This document shows, in pieces, positions 5,411 to 51,982 of a DNA stretch of 64,000 bases. The translations under genes and the position numbers were made by a program. This DNA is from Chloroflexota bacterium (GTDB taxonomy: Bacteria; Chloroflexota; Anaerolineae; J036; Brachytrichaceae): the NCBI GenBank assembly GCA_025354985.1, contig JANXLU010000012.1, positions 1-64,000 of the forward strand. The letters are read 5' to 3'. Below the pieces are notes generated by a model. It worked only from the letters and a program-made list of their open reading frames with translations, was not told the DNA's origin and did no database searches. How positions within the stretch are numbered: the first letter of the stretch is position 1; every line of letters starts with the position of its first letter.

Positions 5411-6760
5411 ATGGTAGCCCGGTTACACCTCCGATTTGCGTTGCTTGCATTGGCCCTAGTCGCCACCGGTTGCAATGCTTCGTCAATCCCTTCCACCCCC
5501 ACCCCGATCCCTGTTCCGCCGGCGCCACAACCACCCACGTACCGGGTACAGCGCGGTGCGGTCGTGCGCGGAACCGAATTTGCCGCCCGTGTGCAGCCGG
5601 CGGAAAGCGCCGAGCTCAACTTTGGTACCGACGGTCGCGTTCGGGTTGTCAACTTTAAGGGCGGAGATGCTGTTAAGAAGGGCGACGTGCTCGCCGAACT
5701 CGACCTAACCGACATTCGAACTCAGCTAACCCAGGCGACAATTCAATTCAACACCGCCCAAACCGTCTTGAGCGAAACCCAAAGATCTTATTCACGCACG
5801 CTGGAGCTTGCCCAGCTGGACCTCAATCAAGCCAGCTTGAACCTGCAAACCGCGCGAGCACGCGCCTCGGCCTCAAACATCAGCACTTTGAACAATGACT
5901 TGGATCGCAACGCCGTGGTAATTGCCGATATCGAAACGAGCATTCGCCGCGCGCGTGAAACGGGTAACCAAGCTGGTGCCGACAACGCCGGCAAAGTGCT
6001 GAAACAGGCTCAAGTCGACCGCGAAAAACTGCAGACAAGTTATAACCAGGCGCTCGCAGACGCAAAAGTCCGCGACTTGGAAGTTGCACGTCTGGAAAAT
6101 GAATACCGACGCGCTGTGCTAAATCTGGATCAAAAGGCGAACAAGCTGGACCCAAACCAGGTTCAAGCGTTGGAGACAGCCCGAGTCACCGTTGACTCGC
6201 TGAACGTCAAACTGGACAAAGGATCATTGATCGCACCCTTCGATGGCGTTATTGCATATCAACCTTTGGGATTGGGCGACAACGTTCGCGCCTTGGATGG
6301 AAACATAGTGGTAGCCAAGCCTGGCGAACTTGAATTGGTGGCGTCCTTAATCGATACGCAGCTTAACCAGATCAGTGTTGGTCAGTTGGTTAGTATTACG
6401 TTTGGCAACTTGCCCGACAAACAGTTCGACGGTTATATTTCGCGCGTTCCCGGGTTCGGAACATCGGGCACCACCAGCTCACAAACCAAGGATAAATTGG
6501 TGCGAATCGTAATCAAAAGTGGTCCTGCGTTGGAGCCGGGCATCACAGCCCAGGTGAAGACCGTTCTGGGAAAAAGCGAAAATGTCTTGTGGTTGCCTCC
6601 CAATGCCCTGCGCAAATATCGCGGACGAAGTTTCGTCGTGTTACAGGAGGCCGACGGGAGACAAAGGCGGGCGGATGTTCTCGTTGGATTGGAGGCCGCT
6701 GAGCGCGTGGAGATTCAAGATGGACTGAAAGAAGGTGATGTGATTGTGGGGCAGCAGTGA
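5411..6760 (+). CDS. HlyD/RND-type periplasmic adaptor lipoprotein
   Basis: Membrane-fusion adaptor of 449 residues. I chose ATG 5411 because it begins a lipoprotein signal ending VATGC (Cys21); the frame is open further upstream but that part lies within the endonuclease gene. A Pro-rich linker follows. A first half-lipoyl segment (GRVRVVNFKGGDAVKKGDVLAELD) leads into a long Gln/Ala/Leu-rich coiled-coil hairpin at about residues 105-275. The second half-lipoyl segment (IAPFDGVIAYQPLGLGDNV) and a beta-barrel domain follow. It overlaps the next gene by four bases (GTGA), so it should work with the FtsX-like permease as an exporter or lipoprotein-transport complex. No ATPase gene is adjacent. 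Confidence 0.87.
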   Translation: MVARLHLRFALLALALVATGCNASSIPSTPTPIPVPPAPQPPTYRVQRGAVVRGTEFAARVQPAESAELNFGTDGRVRVVNFKGGDAVKKGDVLAELDLTDIRTQLTQATIQFNTAQTVLSETQRSYSRTLELAQLDLNQASLNLQTARARASASNISTLNNDLDRNAVVIADIETSIRRARETGNQAGADNAGKVLKQAQVDREKLQTSYNQALADAKVRDLEVARLENEYRRAVLNLDQKANKLDPNQVQALETARVTVDSLNVKLDKGSLIAPFDGVIAYQPLGLGDNVRALDGNIVVAKPGELELVASLIDTQLNQISVGQLVSITFGNLPDKQFDGYISRVPGFGTSGTTSSQTKDKLVRIVIKSGPALEPGITAQVKTVLGKSENVLWLPPNALRKYRGRSFVVLQEADGRQRRADVLVGLEAAERVEIQDGLKEGDVIVGQQ

Positions 6761-42297: not shown

Positions 42298-43131
42298 ATG
42301 CCACTTTTCAAACTCAAAACACGCAATCCCGTCCCGGTTGCGACCGGGGCAACTGCAGCAAACGGAACCAAAGCTGCGAACCAAATGCCAGTGGGCACAC
42401 GCGCGAACAAAAACGGCGTAGTCGGCACGGCACAACATGGCGACAACATCGTTGAAATTGACGACGTATACAAAAGCTTCATCATGGGAAAGGAGGCCGT
42501 TCCGGCCTTGCGCGGCGTGTCGATCAATGTCAAGCGCGGCGAGTTTCTTTGCCTGATGGGCCCGAGCGGCAGTGGCAAAACGACGCTTCTAAACATCATT
42601 GGCGGTCTCGACACACCCAGCCGGGGTCACGTCATGGTCGACGGCGAACAGGTGGTGTCGTTGAACGAAGAGAAACTTGCCCGCTTGCGCTTGAAGAAAA
42701 TGGGCTTTGTTTTCCAGTCCTTCAACTTGCTCAGCAGCTTTACGGCGTTGGAGAATGTGCAGGTGCCCATGGTGTTGCTAGGCAATAGAAACCCAAAACA
42801 TGCCGAGGAGTTGCTCCGCCTGGTCGGGCTTGGAGATCGCATGACCCATTACCCAAGCGAACTTTCAGGCGGACAACAGCAGCGTGTGGCTATTGCGCGC
42901 GCGCTTGCCAATGATCCACCCCTGCTCATCGGAGACGAAATGACGGGCGACTTGGATACCCAAACCTCGTTTGAGGTGATGGACCTGCTGGTAAAGCTAA
43001 ACAAGGACAATGGCACAAGCATTGTGTTTGTGACCCACGACCCGCGCATGAGTAAATTTGCCAGCCGCGTCATCCAAATGCGAGATGGCAAACTGGAGTC
43101 GGAAGAGCAATCTGCCGTTCACAATCCATGA
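42298..43131 (+). CDS. ABC exporter ATPase, MacB/LolD type
   Basis: A 277-residue ATPase of the LolD/MacB group. A non-conserved Ala/Thr/Asn-rich tail of about 55 residues precedes the domain, which starts IVEIDDVYKSFIMGKEAVPALRGV. Walker A is GPSGSGKTT (residues about 88-96), the Q-loop is FVFQSFNLLSSFTALENV, the signature LSGGQQQRVAIARAL, and Walker B reads LLIGDEMTGDLDT where DEPTGNLD is usual. ATG 42298 is chosen because the earlier frame to 42244 adds an unlikely stretch. It overlaps the permease gene by four bases (ATGA), so the two form one complex. Confidence 0.9.
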   Translation: MPLFKLKTRNPVPVATGATAANGTKAANQMPVGTRANKNGVVGTAQHGDNIVEIDDVYKSFIMGKEAVPALRGVSINVKRGEFLCLMGPSGSGKTTLLNIIGGLDTPSRGHVMVDGEQVVSLNEEKLARLRLKKMGFVFQSFNLLSSFTALENVQVPMVLLGNRNPKHAEELLRLVGLGDRMTHYPSELSGGQQQRVAIARALANDPPLLIGDEMTGDLDTQTSFEVMDLLVKLNKDNGTSIVFVTHDPRMSKFASRVIQMRDGKLESEEQSAVHNP

Positions 43132-46118
43132 GTCTGAAATATGTTCTAAATTCAATGCGCAAGCGCGTGCTGCGCACGATCATTATTGCACTTGCCCTCA
43201 CGATGGGCGTTGCCCTTGTGGGCGCTTTGCTTGCGCTGGTAGACACCCAACGACAATTTAGCGTGCAGGCCGTTGGAACATCGACTGGTGGGTTCGACCT
43301 AGGCATCTCTCGTACAGACCTCGCCGCTTCACCATTCTTTGATTACGCGGGTGTGGCAACCGCCGCAAGCAAATCATATGACCGGATCGCGCAATCTCAT
43401 CCTCGTATCCAGGTAGGCTCCGAGGCCCGCATGGCAGGGGCCTTCGACGGACAGGTGGTCACCGTTGTAGCGCTGGACGGCAATCAGGACGATTTGGTGA
43501 CCTTGGCAATCGGGCGTCCCAACACGGGCGGTGTCGGCGGCTTGAACATTCGAATTGGTGGTGCTCGCGGTGGCCCCGGTGGCGGGGGTGGCCCACCCGG
43601 TGGCGGAGGTGGCCCACCCGGTGGTGGTGGACCTGCAGGCGGTGGGCGAGCTGGTCAGACCAATCGGCCAAACGCAGGTCGCGGCGGTGTTCAAGGAACC
43701 TATCCTCCTGAACCCGGGCAGATCTTTCTCGATAGCGCTACCGCAGGCGTTCTCGGCGCATCCGTTGGTGATCAAGTCCAGCTTGCATACGCCTTGCCGG
43801 CACCCAGAGAGCTTGGCCAGGCTGTGATCACATCCACGAGCAGCCCCCGATTGGTTGCAAAATTTACCGTCAGTGGCGTCGGCACATTGGATGGTCTGAC
43901 AACCGATGCAACCAACGCCGTGATCATGCAACTATCAGATGCGCAGTCCTGGCTCCAGGTCCCTAATTTAGCCAACCAACTATTGCTGGTTTGGCAGGCT
44001 GCCACAGGTGGTTCCAACGATGCAACGGCAACCGTGTCCTCAGCCCGCAACGTGGGTGAGGAAGTTCGCACCGGGTTGCAACAGCAGTTGGGATCGGACT
44101 TCAATGTCACGCTTCCGAAATATACCCGGCTGGAAAGCAACGCGCAAGCTTTTACCTTTCAACAAACCTTTATCACCCTTTACGGCTTGTTGAGCATGGG
44201 AATCATCGGCTTGATGGTCAACGCTCTGATGAACACCACCGTGCTGGAAATGAAACACGACCTGGCGGTTTTGCGCGTACTCGGCTCAGCCCGATACCGC
44301 ATGTTTGAAATTGTCATTGTGGAAGTACTACTTCTGGGTGCTGTGGGAATTATTCTAGGATTGCTGGTCGGCAGGGCGCTAAACGACTTCATACTGGTCC
44401 CTACGCTGCTTGCAAATCTTAATCTGCCCAGTGGTGTGCGGGCAGCATGGACAATCCAAACAGTTTTAATCCCAACCGGAATCACGATTGTTGTGCTTAC
44501 CTTGGCGACGATCAGCCCCGCCCGGGCGGCTGCCAACACCAAGGTCATGATTGTGCTGAACCCTTCTGCCGCGGATCAGCCCACACTGGATGACTTGAGC
44601 AAGCTTCGCGAGCGCAAGGCCCAGACCGGTTTGTTGCTGGGGGGTTTTATTTTGATCGCGTTTAGCGCGCTCACGTTGATCGTTGTGCCCACCGTGTTCC
44701 GCTCGGAAGACGCAACTGGCACGGCAATCATCCAGTTCGGCTCGCTGCTGCTTATGGTCATTGGCGCCTCGCTCCTGTTTTACTTCTTCACAGCGCCGCT
44801 GGAACGACTCTTGATTTCGCTCTACCAGCTGGTAAACCCCACTGCAGGATATTTTGCCGGGCGCTACGCACTGCGTGGCAAGGGGCGCAATGCGCTGATT
44901 TCGCTGATGGTGGTAATGAGTGGTGTCCTCCCCTGTTTGCTTGCAACCCAACTCGCTTTGCAAAAGGCAAACGTGGAAACGGACTCGCAATTTAATAGCG
45001 GCGCACAAATTGTCGCCACCACGCGCAGCGCCGGAGGGAACTTCAATTTCTTTAGGCGCGGAGTTCGTACGGATGTCAATCTTTCAGACGCCGATGTTGC
45101 CGCGGTAAAGAGTCAAAAGGGTATCGGCACAGTTATTGGCGTTGCCGACAACCTGCCAAATATGGCTGTTAGCGACATCATTGGTTTGAGATCTGAAAAC
45201 GTAAGTTATGTTGGCGTTGAAGGCGACCTTAACACTGTGCTCTACCCAACGCTTTTCCGCTGGATCGGTGGAGATTCCGGAACGCTTACTCAGATCGTAA
45301 CCGATCCAAGCGGGGCAATCATCTCGCAAGGTTTGAGCCAATTTCTCGATCTCAAGGTCGGCGATCCAATCGTCCTCAAAGGACGGGGAACCGACCATTC
45401 GAAAACCCTCAAAATCATTGGTATCGTCGCGCGCGTTCCTGGATTTACCCGCTATTTCACTCGTAACAAAGTGGATGCAGATCGCAGTGGCATCTTTATG
45501 AACCTTGGTACCTATCGCGATTTGATGGCTGATCCCGCACAGGGCAAGCCCGATTTGACAACAAATGTGCTCACAAAGCTTTTCGCAACGGTAGCGCCAG
45601 GCGTCGACGAATCAAACATTCTCCGTGGATTGCGCACGTTTCTTGGCAATCAAAACGATATGACCGTTGTAGCCACGTCCGAACAGGTGGCGCAACAGCA
45701 AAATCAACTCGGTCAAAGCGAGATTTTTATTATTCTCTTAACTGGACTGTCCATGGTCACCGCCATCTTTGGTGTGTTGGCTGTAATGTATACCGCGGTC
45801 ATGGGCCGTCGCAGCGAGATCGGAATGCTCAAGGCCGTTGGTGCCGCGCGTGGCGCGCTCCGTGGCGTTTTTGTTGGTGAGGCAGTCATTACGACCCTTG
45901 CCGCCGGTATTGCGGGGATCGTTGCCGGAACATTGCTGGGATATGCCTTTGAAGGCACACAGCGAATACAGAATGACCAGATTATCCGCCTAGCGTTTGA
46001 TTTCCAAACGGCCGGGCTGATCGTTGTCATGGTATGCCTGGCAGCGGTGTTCAGTTCAATCCTTGCAACGCAACCCGTCATTACACAAAAGGCCATCAAA
46101 ATCCTCAGGGAGCGATAA
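43128..46118 (+). CDS. FtsX-like permease of the MacB-type exporter, with Gly/Pro-rich insert
   Basis: A 996-residue permease with an N-terminal membrane segment (RTIIIALALTMGVALVGALLALV) and a periplasmic domain. A first FtsX core is at about residues 345-480 (MKHDLAVLRVLGSARYRMFEIV), then more membrane segments and a second external domain. A second core follows (MGRRSEIGMLKAVGAARGALRGVFVGEAV). Residues about 143-176 are a low-complexity GGGGGPPGG insert encoded partly by two 21-bp tandem repeats. With the ATPase and the two downstream adaptors it should form a tripartite-type exporter. The substrate is unknown. Confidence 0.88.
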   Translation: MSLKYVLNSMRKRVLRTIIIALALTMGVALVGALLALVDTQRQFSVQAVGTSTGGFDLGISRTDLAASPFFDYAGVATAASKSYDRIAQSHPRIQVGSEARMAGAFDGQVVTVVALDGNQDDLVTLAIGRPNTGGVGGLNIRIGGARGGPGGGGGPPGGGGGPPGGGGPAGGGRAGQTNRPNAGRGGVQGTYPPEPGQIFLDSATAGVLGASVGDQVQLAYALPAPRELGQAVITSTSSPRLVAKFTVSGVGTLDGLTTDATNAVIMQLSDAQSWLQVPNLANQLLLVWQAATGGSNDATATVSSARNVGEEVRTGLQQQLGSDFNVTLPKYTRLESNAQAFTFQQTFITLYGLLSMGIIGLMVNALMNTTVLEMKHDLAVLRVLGSARYRMFEIVIVEVLLLGAVGIILGLLVGRALNDFILVPTLLANLNLPSGVRAAWTIQTVLIPTGITIVVLTLATISPARAAANTKVMIVLNPSAADQPTLDDLSKLRERKAQTGLLLGGFILIAFSALTLIVVPTVFRSEDATGTAIIQFGSLLLMVIGASLLFYFFTAPLERLLISLYQLVNPTAGYFAGRYALRGKGRNALISLMVVMSGVLPCLLATQLALQKANVETDSQFNSGAQIVATTRSAGGNFNFFRRGVRTDVNLSDADVAAVKSQKGIGTVIGVADNLPNMAVSDIIGLRSENVSYVGVEGDLNTVLYPTLFRWIGGDSGTLTQIVTDPSGAIISQGLSQFLDLKVGDPIVLKGRGTDHSKTLKIIGIVARVPGFTRYFTRNKVDADRSGIFMNLGTYRDLMADPAQGKPDLTTNVLTKLFATVAPGVDESNILRGLRTFLGNQNDMTVVATSEQVAQQQNQLGQSEIFIILLTGLSMVTAIFGVLAVMYTAVMGRRSEIGMLKAVGAARGALRGVFVGEAVITTLAAGIAGIVAGTLLGYAFEGTQRIQNDQIIRLAFDFQTAGLIVVMVCLAAVFSSILATQPVITQKAIKILRER
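43587..43628 (+). repeat. Two 21-bp tandem repeats encoding Gly/Pro
   Basis: Two adjacent 21-base units beginning GGTGGCCCACCCGGTGG (43587-43607 and 43608-43628), differing at two of the last four bases. They encode GGPPGGG twice and keep the reading frame. The repeat is likely to vary in copy number between strains. Confidence 0.8.
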
Positions 46119-46120
46119 AA

Positions 46121-47338
46121 ATGTCACTACGAAAGGTTCTCATGCCACTTGCAACTATGGTGGCATTACTAGCCGCGCTTATGTCTTGCACATCGACCAC
46201 GCCAGCCGTTGACGCTGGCGCAACTGGAGGCGGTCGAAATCCGGGGGGCGGTCAGGGTGGCGGAAGAAACACTGGTGGCAACCAGACTACCGATGCGACG
46301 GCAGTGCCTACCGGTGCCATCGTTTCCGTGCCAATCATCGCGGTAGACGGCGTATTGACACTTGCAAGTCCCCCAGCCACGGCCTCATTTGAAACGTCCG
46401 GCCGGGTAATTGCAGTTAATGTCCGACCCGGCATGTCGGTAAAAACAGGCGATGTCCTTGCAATGTTGGATGGAACTGCCTTGAGCCTTACACTGCAGCT
46501 GGCTCAGGAAAAGCTCGCGCTGCAACAGGCTCAAATTGCGAAGAGCCTGGCGCCAGCTCTTGGAACGGACTTGGATACGGCTCGCGCGTCACTGGCATCT
46601 GCGCATGCCAGTTACAACATCGCGCGACAGAGTGCAACGGCACTGGATATCGACAGTGCATTGCGGTCATGGAATCAAGCGAAAAACACACTGTATAACA
46701 CCCAGCTCAACCGGGATTCAGTTTGTGCCACCAATAAGGGTGGCAAGTGTGATGTTGCCGAGCTCGGCGTGAAGAGCGCGGAGGTAAGTGAACGCGCTGC
46801 ACACGACAAATATCTTGTCATCCAACAGCCCCCAACCCAGGATAAGCTCACCCAAAGCTGGTCCGGGGTTGTTCAGGCCCAAACCGCTCTTGCCAAGCTT
46901 GAAGCGAGTGCCACCACCGAGCAAAAGAAAATCTATGACTTGCAACTAGCGCAGGCCACCCTTGCCGTCCAGCGCGCTCAGCGCGACTTGGCCAAACTGA
47001 AATTACTTTCTCCATGCGATTGTAGGGTGCAGGCTGTAACTCTTGCGCTCGGAGGCACGGAAACCGGTTCGGTTACCCTCCTAGAACCCTCACAATTGCA
47101 GTTTCAAACGACCAACCTGAGCGAGCGCGATGTTATAAACGTGCGACCTGGGATGAAGGCTGTGATACGGCTTAAGGCGGTTGTCCAGCCGATTCCAGCA
47201 AAGGTCGGTGTAATCCTACCTATAAGCTCGGGCGCCCAGGGCACGACAGCACTGTTTACCACGTTGATCACACCAGATGTCGCTGATCCCGCCCTGTTAC
47301 CCGGAATGACCGGGCAGGCGGAAATCGCCACGAAGTAA
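46121..47338 (+). CDS. HlyD-type adaptor lipoprotein with paired cysteines (first copy)
   Basis: A 405-residue adaptor, ATG two bases after the permease stop. The signal ends ALMSC (Cys23), followed by a Gly/Asn-rich linker. A half-lipoyl motif (GRVIAVNVRPGMSVKTGDVLAMLD) leads into an Ala/Gln-rich coiled-coil hairpin. Its tip carries two cysteines (Cys202 and Cys210, in VCATNKGGKCD). The second half-lipoyl motif is LLSPCDCRVQAV (Cys299, Cys301), where ordinary adaptors read APFDGVV. The downstream gene encodes a paralogue with the same cysteine pattern. Confidence 0.87.
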   Translation: MSLRKVLMPLATMVALLAALMSCTSTTPAVDAGATGGGRNPGGGQGGGRNTGGNQTTDATAVPTGAIVSVPIIAVDGVLTLASPPATASFETSGRVIAVNVRPGMSVKTGDVLAMLDGTALSLTLQLAQEKLALQQAQIAKSLAPALGTDLDTARASLASAHASYNIARQSATALDIDSALRSWNQAKNTLYNTQLNRDSVCATNKGGKCDVAELGVKSAEVSERAAHDKYLVIQQPPTQDKLTQSWSGVVQAQTALAKLEASATTEQKKIYDLQLAQATLAVQRAQRDLAKLKLLSPCDCRVQAVTLALGGTETGSVTLLEPSQLQFQTTNLSERDVINVRPGMKAVIRLKAVVQPIPAKVGVILPISSGAQGTTALFTTLITPDVADPALLPGMTGQAEIATK

Positions 47339-47350
47339 CAAACACGATCC

Positions 47351-48553
47351 ATGAACTTTCGACTAAAGATTAGACAACCCTTGCTCATTCTTGCAAGTCT
47401 TGTGCTTGCCGCCTGCACCACGAGTACCCCAGCGCCAACCGTCGCAATTCCCCGCGGCGGAAATGGGGCACGCGCAGCAACGACTCCAACAGCCGTTCCG
47501 TCACAAATCATTGCAACACAAAGCATCGTAACCGTCGATGGCGCCTTGTCTTTGAATTCCCCGGCGCTTGCGCTGGGATTTGGCACAAGTAGCAAAGTGC
47601 GGTCGGTCAAAGTCAAAGTTGGCCAGACTGTAAACCTTGGCGACGTATTGGCCACGATAGATGATGCGGCACTGCAAGATGCGGTCATCGATGCCCAGGC
47701 AAATCTGGACGCTATCAGGGCTTCAGTGGCACAGCAGGCTATTCCAGCAACGAAAGAAGATATCGCGGCAGCCGAGGCGTCTCTCAACAGCGCATATGCA
47801 AGTTATAACACTGTGAGCGCCGGTAGCTTGGCGTCCGACATCGAAGCATCACGCAAGAGCGTGGAAGGCGCTCGAATCAGCCTTCAAAGTTCACAAGCTT
47901 CACGCGACCTTGCGTGCAGCAGCAGACAGGGTACCACCAGCGAGTCATGCAAACAAGCTGAGGCCTCGCTCGGTAATGCGTATGAAGGCTGGATTTCCGC
48001 GCAGGATGTGCTGAACAAGATACTTGCGCCTCCAACCGGTGACGCGCTGACACAGTCATACGCCTCGATCGTTTCGGCCAAAAACAAGCTGGCAGCACTT
48101 AAGGCGGGTATTTCCGACACCCAGCAGAAAATTAACGACACACAAATTGTGCAAGCCGCCGCCGCACTGCAGCGGGCGCAAGATGCTCTGGCATCTTCGC
48201 AGTTGATCGCGCCTTGCCAATGTATCGTCCAGGACGTCACCATATCGCCGGGAAGCAATGCCGGCTCAACCGCGTTCACGCTCGTAAATCTTTCCGGAAT
48301 TCAGTTCAAAACCACAAATGTTTCCGAGCGGGATATCGCAAAGCTGAAGCCCGGCGCAACTGCGTCGGTTCGGCTCAGATCCTATGCAGAACCGATGACA
48401 GCCCACGTTGCGAGCATACTTGCACAGTCGTCCGGGACCCAAGGGAACACGGCAACCTTCACAGTTTTGCTTGATATCGATAAATCACCTCGCCTGTTAC
48501 TGCCTGGCATGACCGGCCAGGCCGACGTGACGGTCGGGCCAGGTTCACCTTAG
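47351..48553 (+). CDS. HlyD-type adaptor lipoprotein with paired cysteines (second copy)
   Basis: A 400-residue paralogue of the preceding adaptor, 12 bases downstream. The lipoprotein signal ends LVLAAC (Cys22). After GNGARAATTPTAVP comes the half-lipoyl segment SSKVRSVKVKVGQTVNLGDVLATID, then a coiled-coil hairpin with Cys189 and Cys200 near its tip, and LIAPCQCIVQDV (Cys289, Cys291) at the second lipoyl half. The beta-barrel end (FKTTNVSERDIAKLKPGATASVRL) is nearly parallel to the first copy. Two non-identical adaptors may assemble as a mixed ring. Confidence 0.87.
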   Translation: MNFRLKIRQPLLILASLVLAACTTSTPAPTVAIPRGGNGARAATTPTAVPSQIIATQSIVTVDGALSLNSPALALGFGTSSKVRSVKVKVGQTVNLGDVLATIDDAALQDAVIDAQANLDAIRASVAQQAIPATKEDIAAAEASLNSAYASYNTVSAGSLASDIEASRKSVEGARISLQSSQASRDLACSSRQGTTSESCKQAEASLGNAYEGWISAQDVLNKILAPPTGDALTQSYASIVSAKNKLAALKAGISDTQQKINDTQIVQAAAALQRAQDALASSQLIAPCQCIVQDVTISPGSNAGSTAFTLVNLSGIQFKTTNVSERDIAKLKPGATASVRLRSYAEPMTAHVASILAQSSGTQGNTATFTVLLDIDKSPRLLLPGMTGQADVTVGPGSP

Positions 48554-48580: not shown

Positions 48581-48586
48581 TACAAT
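48581..48586 (+). promoter_or_regulatory. -10 box of the rhodanese gene (near-leaderless)
   Basis: TACAAT ending eight bases before ATG 48595. Because AAAGG also lies five bases before an in-frame TTG at 48586, the start may alternatively be that TTG with a normal ribosome-binding site. Confidence 0.4.
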
Positions 48587-48594
48587 TGCCCGCC

Positions 48595-48915
48595 ATGATC
48601 AAGCAATTGAGTGTTATTGACTTGGCCCAACGTCTGCAGCAACCCAATCCGCCGGTACTGATCGATGTGCGTGAGCCATTTGAATATGAGATCGCACACG
48701 TTCCGGGTACGCACTTGCATGTTCTAAACGATATCGGTGTCTGGAGCAAAACTCTTGACAAATCAGGTGAATACGTACTTATTTGTCACCTTGGCGGACG
48801 CAGCCAAACGGCCTGCCAACTCTTGCAAAGCATGGGATTTTCCAAGCTTGCAAATTTAGCGGGTGGCACTGACGCTTGGGCGCAACATGTTGACCCGGGT
48901 ATGCGCCGTTACTAG
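48595..48915 (+). CDS. Rhodanese-like sulphurtransferase domain protein
   Basis: A 106-residue single rhodanese domain. Typical segments are VLIDVREPFEYEIAHVPGTHLH and the loop VLICHLGGRSQTACQLL, whose active-site cysteine opens CHLGGR, then GFSKLANLAGGTDAWAQHVDP. It probably carries persulphide sulphur in the cytoplasm, or acts in thiol signalling. It lies after the exporter operon and may be separately transcribed. Confidence 0.92.
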   Translation: MIKQLSVIDLAQRLQQPNPPVLIDVREPFEYEIAHVPGTHLHVLNDIGVWSKTLDKSGEYVLICHLGGRSQTACQLLQSMGFSKLANLAGGTDAWAQHVDPGMRRY

Positions 48916-48973
48916 ACCGGCCTGCGCAAGCCCGGAAGCTGACCATGAATTTTCAGGATCGGCCCCAAACATA

Positions 48974-51900
48974 ATGCGATCGCCCGTCAGGCGCTTTTTT
49001 ACCGTCATTGTTAGAGTGCTGCTTGCCGCGGCCGTCTTTGGTTCGACAGCAGCCGCTCCGGTGAATGCCCAAACTCCTGTGCCGCCGCCCCTGCCCTTTG
49101 CGGCCAAGGCCCAGTCTGTTTTGCGCGGAATGTCACCTAACGCCCGGGTCGGGCAACTGTTTGGGATCAGCTATATGGGCAATGACGCAGCTGTCCTGGC
49201 GGATTTGAATGAACTGTTGATTAGTTACCGCGTTGGCGGCGTTCAACTCCGTGCCGCCAACCAGAATTTCACAAATACGCCGGACGTTTTGCGCCAAGTT
49301 GCCGAGCTGACCAACCGTTTGCAGATAGTAGCTTCCGCCCAATCCTTTGCCGAAATTCCAACACTATTACAGACATCTTCTTCCCCGACTGCGACACAGC
49401 GATTGCAGGAAACGATACCCCTGTTTATTTCTTTATCGCAGGAAGGCGATGGATGGCCAAACAGTGAACTGACCCAGGGTGTATCGGCGCTCCCGAGTCA
49501 GCTTGCAATCGGTGCAACCTGGAAGCCCGATTACGCGGATCAGCTTGGCCGCATGTTGGGTGGCGAGCTGGAACGCATTGGCATCAACATGCTGCTGGGC
49601 CCTGTGCTAGACGTACTTGATTCGCCCCGCCCTGGACAGCCCGGCGACAGCGGAACGCGTGTGTTTGGAGGCGACCCATTTTGGGTAGGTCAATTTGGAG
49701 CAGCTTTTGTTGCCGGCGCCCATCTCGGCAGCAACAACCGGTTGGCGGTGGTTGCAAAAAACTTTCCAGGTCTTGGCGGTGCCGATCGCAATGTGGAGGA
49801 TGAAATTCCAACGGTGCAAAAGTCACTCGAACAGCTGCGCTCATTTGACCTCGCACCATTCTTTGCCCTGATGCAATTCGACCCCAAACCAGAAGGCAAA
49901 GTCAACGCAAGCCGTGCCGATGGGCTGTTAATGACGCACATCCGGTACCGCGGATTTCAAGGCAATATTCGCGCAAACACCCGTCCCGTCAGTCTTGATC
50001 CGCAGGCCTATGACGCCTTGATGAAACTGCCCGAAATTTCACCATGGCGCGCCGCTGGCGGAGTAACGTTTTCCGATTCACTGGGGTTGCGGTCTGTCCG
50101 CAGATACGACGATCCAACCGAAAAGACGTTTAATGCTCGCAAAGTGGCGCAAGATGCTTTCGTAGCCGGCAATGATGTACTCATGCTCGGAAATTTTGCG
50201 ATTCACGACTCCTGGTCCGAGCAACTTGCAAACATCAAAGACACGATCGTCTTCTTTCGTGAGCAGTATTCCAAGGATCCGCAATTTGCCGCCCGTGTTG
50301 ACGCTGCAGTGCTGCGAATTCTGAGCCTTAAATTGCGACTCTATGGAGGCAACCCGCTTCTTGGCAGCATCCTCGTCAACGTAGACCGTGCAGCGCAACT
50401 TCCCAAAACCGATGATCCAACAACGCGCCAGTTCGCCGACATTCTAAATACGGTGGCCAAAGACGGTGCAACACTGCTGTCGCCCAGCCCGCGCGAGCTG
50501 CCCGTACTACTTCCACAGCCGCCGGGCAAGGATGATGTTCTTGTATTTCTGACAGACGACCGTCGTATTCAGGAGTGCCCCAAATGCGGTCCGTATCAAG
50601 CAATTGGAAAAACCGCACTCCAGGACATTGCCTTAAAGCTTTACGGACCCAGCACAACCGGGCAGCTCACACCGGCAAAAGTATCGTCGTTTACGTTCAC
50701 CGAGCTCGCCGACGGCATGCGCCTGACAACCACAGTCCCACAGTCTGAAACAGGGGACGTGGCAACAGTCACGATTAGCGAAACTTTGACGACGCCGCGT
50801 GCAATCTCCGCCCGCGTGCGGCCGGCGCTCGAGGCCGCAACGTGGATTGTGATCGGGATGATCGATCTCAAACCCGGAGAGCGCTCTGCACGCATGCTCA
50901 AGGACTTTCTTGATCAGCGCGGCGACTCCCTACGGGACAAGAAGGTGATCGTGTTTGGCATGGGGCCACCTTATTATCTGGACGCAACGCAAATCAGCAA
51001 GATAACTGCGTACTACGGCATCTATGGCCGCTCACCTGCCTCACTAGAGGCCGCTGTCAGAGTGCTTTTCCAGGAGTTTGTTCCAACTGGCTCGTCGCCC
51101 GTTACTGTGGGCGCGCTGAACTACGTGCTCAGCCAGCAGACTACACCGAACGCAACGCAAATCATTCCTTTGGCCAACACATTGTTGCCTCAGCTTCCCG
51201 CCGGTGTGGCGGCTACGCTCACACCTCTCGTTCGCGCAACCTTACCCCCAACCGCAACCGCAACGATCCTCCAACCAAAAATTGGCGACAAGATCAAACT
51301 AAGCGCGGGCCCGGTTTTGGATCGGAACAACCGCATCGTCCCTGATGGAACGCCTGTGCAATTTGTCCTCAATTTCCAGACCGAGCGAATCGAGCAAACC
51401 CTGGCCGCGATAAGTACACGTAACGGCATCGCGGAAACCACTCTTACTCTTGAACGCAAGGGTCGTTTGGACATACGGGCGGAAAGCAACGAAGCGCGTA
51501 TATCTGAACGCGTCCAAGTCACCATTGACGACAACAACGTCGGTAACATTGAGACGATCCGGCCCACGGTCGTGCCCGCCAGCCCGTTACCAATCCCAAC
51601 AGCCACGGTCCTGCAAAAACCTACGGAACCACCCACGTCAACTCCGATTCCGCCCCAGCCCATTCCAGAACCCGTTCGGGCCAACTTCAGTTCGTTTGTC
51701 GCCACGCTGGTGCTCATGTTGCTGCTGGCGCTGCTCACAATGGCCGTGTTAAGTGGCAGCAGGCGCGTCATCCTGCCAGACCGGTGGCGTGCCGTCCTCT
51801 GGAGTTGGATTGGCGGCTGGCTTGCCTATGTGCTTGTTGCAATCGGGGTTCCGGGAACCAATTCGATCACAAAAAGCCTGACGTGGGGGGGTTCCGTAAT

Positions 51901-51982
51901 GGTCGCGGTCGCAGCTGCGATCATAATTATGATTATTTCAATTCTGCGACGGCTGGTAATTGCCGAACAGCAACAACCATGA
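48974..51982 (+). CDS. Membrane-anchored glycoside hydrolase family 3-like protein
   Basis: A 1002-residue protein with a signal peptide ending VNAQ, then a GH3 N-terminal TIM barrel (residues about 35-440), starting RGMSPNARVGQLFGISY. The nucleophile Asp368 is kept in VTFSDSLGLRS. The loop that reads KHFPGxG...DxH in NagZ-type N-acetylglucosaminidases is instead KNFPGLGGADRNVE (Lys262, Asn273, Glu275), so the catalytic Asp/His dyad is replaced. A GH3 C-terminal-like region, an Ig-like domain (about 770-860) and a Pro-rich linker follow. Three hydrophobic segments at the end anchor it. Start ATG 48974 fits the signal peptide. Confidence 0.83.
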   Translation: MRSPVRRFFTVIVRVLLAAAVFGSTAAAPVNAQTPVPPPLPFAAKAQSVLRGMSPNARVGQLFGISYMGNDAAVLADLNELLISYRVGGVQLRAANQNFTNTPDVLRQVAELTNRLQIVASAQSFAEIPTLLQTSSSPTATQRLQETIPLFISLSQEGDGWPNSELTQGVSALPSQLAIGATWKPDYADQLGRMLGGELERIGINMLLGPVLDVLDSPRPGQPGDSGTRVFGGDPFWVGQFGAAFVAGAHLGSNNRLAVVAKNFPGLGGADRNVEDEIPTVQKSLEQLRSFDLAPFFALMQFDPKPEGKVNASRADGLLMTHIRYRGFQGNIRANTRPVSLDPQAYDALMKLPEISPWRAAGGVTFSDSLGLRSVRRYDDPTEKTFNARKVAQDAFVAGNDVLMLGNFAIHDSWSEQLANIKDTIVFFREQYSKDPQFAARVDAAVLRILSLKLRLYGGNPLLGSILVNVDRAAQLPKTDDPTTRQFADILNTVAKDGATLLSPSPRELPVLLPQPPGKDDVLVFLTDDRRIQECPKCGPYQAIGKTALQDIALKLYGPSTTGQLTPAKVSSFTFTELADGMRLTTTVPQSETGDVATVTISETLTTPRAISARVRPALEAATWIVIGMIDLKPGERSARMLKDFLDQRGDSLRDKKVIVFGMGPPYYLDATQISKITAYYGIYGRSPASLEAAVRVLFQEFVPTGSSPVTVGALNYVLSQQTTPNATQIIPLANTLLPQLPAGVAATLTPLVRATLPPTATATILQPKIGDKIKLSAGPVLDRNNRIVPDGTPVQFVLNFQTERIEQTLAAISTRNGIAETTLTLERKGRLDIRAESNEARISERVQVTIDDNNVGNIETIRPTVVPASPLPIPTATVLQKPTEPPTSTPIPPQPIPEPVRANFSSFVATLVLMLLLALLTMAVLSGSRRVILPDRWRAVLWSWIGGWLAYVLVAIGVPGTNSITKSLTWGGSVMVAVAAAIIIMIISILRRLVIAEQQQP

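Follow-up and report, generated by a model that had tools for sequence, protein, structure and literature searches.

Spr0693-0694-0695 of Streptococcus pneumoniae is a MacAB-like system of a Gram-positive bacterium, in which an adaptor ring with the hairpin-lipoyl-barrel fold (PDB 5xu0) is combined with an FtsX-type ABC transporter, according to the accessible part of PMC5768738. That part assigns a gating role to Gln209 of MacA and to the equivalent loop of Spr0693, and reports neither a cysteine pair at the hairpin tip nor a C-x-C motif in Spr0693. The system has one adaptor gene, and its product contains a membrane-proximal domain. E. coli MacA (3fpp, 5nik) also has this domain, and in addition a TolC partner. 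EmrA (4tko, 8zal) serves an MFS transporter and lacks the membrane-proximal domain, according to the abstract of PMC4158417. Two adaptor genes per operon are known from TriA and TriB of the Pseudomonas aeruginosa TriABC-OpmH system, a pump of the RND type that has an outer-membrane channel; no shared four-cysteine pattern is described for them in the accessible text of PMC8277102.

Exporter operon and its permease

The window, that is, the whole stretch of 64,000 nucleotides analysed here, encodes an ABC ATPase, a permease and two lipoprotein adaptors (Table 1). The ATPase and permease reading frames share four bases, and both adaptor genes follow closely on the same strand. A sequence-only reading of this DNA had described a MacB-like exporter with two tandem adaptors sharing a four-cysteine pattern. 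An ORF check bore out its coordinates for the four genes, and all eight cysteines of the mature adaptors, besides one lipobox cysteine each, were confirmed at the positions given in the table. The ordinary adaptor elsewhere in the window also held up as the contrast for which it had been used.

Table 1. Positions of the exporter genes, the cysteine motifs and the contrast adaptor in the window
Feature	Position	Strand	Basis
ABC ATPase, LolD/MacB/DevA class (P0005)	42298..43131	+	PF00005 112.8 bits; TIGR02211 234.3 bits, below cut-off 307.75
Permease (P0004), 996 aa, two FtsX stretches, two large external domains	43128..46118	+	profile matches and hydrophobicity
Adaptor 1, type A (P0001), HlyD/MacA-superfamily lipoprotein, 405 aa; lipobox Cys23	46121..47338	+	sequence, Pfam, AlphaFold2
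Tip pair of adaptor 1, codons Cys202 to Cys210	46724..46750	+	sequence, arm lengths, AlphaFold2
C-x-C of adaptor 1, codons 299-301 (SPCDC)	47015..47023	+	sequence
Adaptor 2, type B (P0002), 400 aa; lipobox Cys22	47351..48553	+	sequence, Pfam, AlphaFold2
Tip pair of adaptor 2, codons Cys189 to Cys200	47915..47950	+	sequence, arm lengths, AlphaFold2
C-x-C of adaptor 2, codons 289-291 (APCQC)	48215..48223	+	sequence, AlphaFold2
Ordinary contrast adaptor, outside the exporter system	5411..6760	+	APFDG; lipobox Cys only

In MacB proper, ATPase and permease are fused into one chain, and the permease part has one FtsX domain and four membrane helices. The permease of the window differs in architecture: it is served by a separate ATPase and has two large external domains and about 10 hydrophobic segments. 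Its NCBIfam MacB score was 19.3 bits (cut-off 966), and the term MacB-like does not fit its architecture. Its best NCBIfam match was the ADOP duplicated permease TIGR03434 (38.3 bits, under the cut-off of 622.3), and weak model matches were obtained to FtsX, ADOP, LolCE, DevC and YbbP as well as to MacB. The first external domain contains a long glycine-rich insert at residues ~145-190, and glycine-rich linkers were also seen at the N-termini of the adaptors. P0004 has two cysteines only, both inside hydrophobic segments, and the permease cysteine motif VLPCLLA was found in 11 of 14 permeases, being missing from the three Roseilinea-type ones. A cysteine partner for the adaptors on the permease is thus unlikely.

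The two adaptors are 40% identical and collinear over their full length. P0002 matched PF13437 (HlyD_3) and PF16576 (HlyD_D23) above the cut-off, and P0001 matched PF13437 and PF13533 weakly, below it. The secondary structure predicted by AlphaFold2 (19-row alignments, mean pLDDT 81.8 and 81.6, pTM 0.50 for both models) shows a helical hairpin inserted between two half-lipoyl motifs and, after them, a beta-barrel, as expected for the HlyD/MacA superfamily. The P0002 model could be superposed on chain B of the Spr0693 structure (5xu0_B; Z 16.0, rmsd 2.8, 212 aligned) and shared its fold with E. coli MacA, and its best Foldseek match was EmrA (4tko, 6.6e-19). In contrast to Spr0693 and MacA proper, and in agreement with EmrA, both adaptors end after the beta-barrel, directly behind the PGMTGQ strand, and the C-terminal membrane-proximal domain is missing.

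Conserved cysteines of the adaptors

By their sequences, P0001 and P0002 belong to a distinct clade of adaptors, called 4C here and defined by a tip pair of the form RDxxC...C together with [SA]PCxCxV. A profile of P0001, P0002 and P0006 was run on the fetched ORFs, and duplicate sequences with identical C-terminal ends were removed before the clade, site and motif counts. All 27 distinct sequences scoring above 300 bits kept the four cysteines, so that the conservation in orthologues which the sequence-only reading had proposed to check was borne out. The next best score was 171.8 bits, and the C-x-C was found at that place in none of the remaining sequences. P0006 is a third 4C adaptor of the same genome (G000 contig 29), about 40% identical and with the same four cysteines. 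Because of this third copy and the 27 sequences, the pattern is not put down to chance. The alignment of the 27 rows has 25 invariant columns only, four of which are these cysteines, and identity with P0002 goes down to 35%. A cysteine in the lipobox column was present in all 25 members with an N-terminus.

Every clade member recognised in a class-wide search of 396 genomes, in which the top-scoring places were taken as loci, came from the family of the window's own bacterium, and the best 18 non-clade adaptors of that search (233-286 bits) had neither the C-x-C nor the tip pair. A second scan of contigs, which used two peptide patterns and is escaped by relatives lacking both, gave 62 loci. 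Clade members were found at 13 of them (L033-L045), in Chloroflexota MAGs or uncultured-bacterium bins that included Candidatus Roseilinea and a Thermoflexales bacterium. So far, then, the clade appears in one Chloroflexota family only, the Thermoflexales/Roseilineaceae relatives, a placement in Roseilineaceae for which the accessible part of PMC8446752 was followed.

The distance from Gly97 in the first half-lipoyl motif to the first tip cysteine was 92, 94, 120 or 144 residues, and that from the second tip cysteine to the C-x-C was 89, 91, 117 or 141. The two arms differed by exactly 3 residues in all 26 measurable members (one truncated member of the 27 was left out), while the spacing within the tip pair varied from 8 to 21. 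This constant difference across arm lengths indicates that the pair tracks the tip of the hairpin; in two relatives both arms are lengthened equally and the pair is still at the tip. In the AlphaFold2 models, one helix ends and the next begins at the tip cysteines (161-189 and 198-225 in P0002; 174-204 and 208-235 in P0001). Both lines of evidence agree with the hairpin-tip position given to these cysteines in the sequence-only reading. In L106:583-2070 and L041:2-1168, type S adaptors from the window's own genus, each hairpin arm is 52 and 28 residues longer, respectively, than is common. The 3-residue register provides a way to locate hairpin tips from sequence.

Among 116 adaptors lacking the C-x-C, 5 had a tip pair of the RDxxC...C form; they came from genomes of five other Chloroflexota families (L021, L023, L025, L215 and L219). 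Arm lengths were also measured in adaptors without the C-x-C, namely in the 9 of 12 loci where recognisable motifs enclose two inner cysteines and no more. The difference was exactly 3 in five of the nine, with arms from 91 to 158, and 5, 1, 1 and 1 in the other four. It appears from these motifs that the tip pair extends beyond the 4C clade, and the C-x-C was seen in the clade only; hairpins stapled at the tip may be common across the phylum. Thus the four cysteines are indeed common to both adaptors, as noted before, but they make up two modules that are distributed differently. In a survey that left out 34 of 117 adaptors for want of a recognisable motif, another conserved cysteine pair, CEQYDHxNDVAEGPC, was observed between the half-lipoyl motifs of L053, L072 and L089 from other Chloroflexota MAGs.

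At the C-x-C site, the second position was glycine in 107 of the 108 other adaptors aligned there without a gap, and alanine in one. The first position was mostly I, F, W, Y, A or V in the same adaptors, and the preceding proline was present in 104. AlphaFold2 placed the C-x-C in a turn ahead of strand 291-296 in P0002 or 301-306 in P0001. E. coli MacA has no C-x-C; its counterpart turn is APMAG (188-192), whose glycine is followed 17 residues later by the gating residue Gln209. In EmrA, SPMTG is aligned to the C-x-C of the clade. No description of membrane-fusion adaptors with a C-x-C or with a natural tip disulphide was found in the literature searched, which was open-access. The presence of the C-x-C in every clade member found, at a turn where glycine is nearly universal, points to a chemical or stapling function at this position of the lipoyl ring.

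Adaptor lineages and their permeases

Among 28 genomes of the family, clade adaptors were found in 12 and the permease in 12, with both in 11. The genome with the permease only (G405) has a contig that breaks off shortly after the start of a lipoprotein reading frame behind the permease, and the one with the adaptor only (G400) has a contig that starts inside that adaptor. The 4C adaptors and one permease family thus go together, with both exceptions at contig ends.

The adaptor tree separated A (support 100/99), B (99/99) and S (98/94), and the permease tree split the long and short forms at 100/100. The gene order permease-A-B was found at all seven long-permease loci whose contig reaches far enough, although the contig cuts the end of the permease in two of them and the B gene in one. 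These data identify A and B as two old adaptor lineages that stand in tandem behind the long permease in a kept order. S-type adaptors are encoded by a single gene with a shorter permease. They carry the same four cysteines, and therefore the cysteines are not specific to the mixing of A and B. The short permeases align to the long one in two pieces, skipping residues ~125-188.

The Roseilinea-type copies join B at 80/99 and A at just 81/53. Their genomes have one ATPase/permease pair standing alone and A-like and B-like adaptors at two other loci (scattered adaptor genes were seen at L192, L194 and L197 in G416, G414 and G417). At the thresholds used, G416, which is a single contig, contains one permease and two clade adaptors. 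The scattered A-like and B-like adaptors of these genomes may be used jointly with the permease, but their separate loci and the weak link of the A-like group to A count against the explanation preferred below.

The heteromeric adaptor ring proposed in the sequence-only reading gains indirect support from the gene order and the phylogeny. As A and B are old lineages whose gene order has been preserved, our data suggest that both contribute to one mixed ring. The A/B pair offers a natural system for asking what purpose a mixed adaptor ring serves.

Cell setting and possible roles of the cysteines

Chloroflexota are mostly monoderm. The TolC family (PF02321) was absent from 27 of the 28 family genomes, including that of the window (G000, 95.8% complete), which thus lacks the TolC partner of MacA proper. 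The sole match, G414:C99:7650-7997, is a short frame, possibly from contamination or a stray contig. A DsbB-like gene was found in 27 of the 28 genomes, among them the window's, where the match is modest (39.5 bits), and VKOR in none of the 28. The window's genome also has several DsbA-like (Thioredoxin_4) genes, some of which combine a membrane anchor with CxxC. Since DsbA-like and DsbB-like genes are present, disulphide formation outside the cytoplasm is plausible, although the lack of VKOR and the modest DsbB match weigh against it.

Taken together, we lean slightly towards one explanation as a whole, in which the operon encodes an ATP-driven exporter without a recognisable TolC channel. 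The ATPase and the pseudo-duplicated FtsX-type permease would carry a ring formed by the 4C lipoproteins on the membrane's outer face, with A and B in one mixed ring on one permease. The tip cysteines most likely form an intramolecular disulphide, the best supported of the steps proposed. This bond would close a variable loop at the hairpin's free end, which in other adaptors would contact TolC. In bacteria lacking TolC, hairpin ends may be closed in the way that the tip pair suggests. At the turn opening the second half-lipoyl motif, the half with the gating loop in MacA and Spr0693, the C-x-C would form a short-range disulphide stiffening the turn in place of glycine. This is the most likely role of the motif, and it is the weakest step of the explanation; C-x-C disulphides are strained and uncommon. 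The hairpin disulphide suggested earlier is accordingly plausible from the tip position and the Dsb-like genes. A four-cysteine cluster inside one subunit was ruled out, as the pairs lie at opposite ends of an arm of ~89 residues.

The C-x-C might instead coordinate a soft metal ion such as Cu+ or Zn2+ and serve a metal exporter as its sensor, gate or cargo site, with the tip cysteines forming a separate disulphide. C-x-C is a known thiolate metal motif, and its invariance in all 27 sequences fits such a site, as does its location in the lipoyl half where relatives have the gating loop. On the other hand, no metal regulator, metallochaperone or other metal-related gene was found among the 30 neighbouring ORFs scanned with Pfam, one of which (L195:1-522) was in the wrong frame. 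The operon neighbours vary between genomes, and the clade has no invariant histidine and one invariant methionine (M387), which lies in the barrel. Nothing found points to metal binding, which the sequence-only reading had offered beside disulphides, and it is unlikely. We rate marginally lower a redox-active C-x-C engaged in disulphide exchange with a Dsb-type partner or with the exported substrate during cargo passage. The C-P-C of Mia40 illustrates that a C-x-C pair can be catalytic; a near-invariant glycine is replaced by cysteine in every member, and Dsb-like proteins exist in the genome, but no oxidoreductase gene was found in the operon or among the neighbours scanned. Nor did the scanned neighbours include the thioredoxin-like partner that had been anticipated beside the operon.

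It is also conceivable, with about the same low probability as the redox-active pair, that a ring of C-x-C sites beside the gating loops acts as a chemical gate, by disulphide exchange with the substrate or by redox- or metal-driven opening and closing. If true, the adaptor would be an active part of export and not a passive tube. By far the least probable is that the cysteines no longer have a role and persist through shared descent as neutral markers of the lineage. The confinement of the clade to one bacterial family would allow them to have arisen once, but their place among so few invariant columns at such low identity argues against neutrality, and they have outlasted the A/B/S duplication and the lengthening of the hairpin.

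As to the surroundings of the operon, a two-component system adjoins the loci of G403 and G408 and not that of the window, and a shared regulator was not counted as evidence. The nearest gene downstream of the window's operon is rhodanese-like (48586-48915). It is followed by a gene for a large glycoside hydrolase family 3-like protein (48863-51982), whose listed ORF overlaps the rhodanese-like one.
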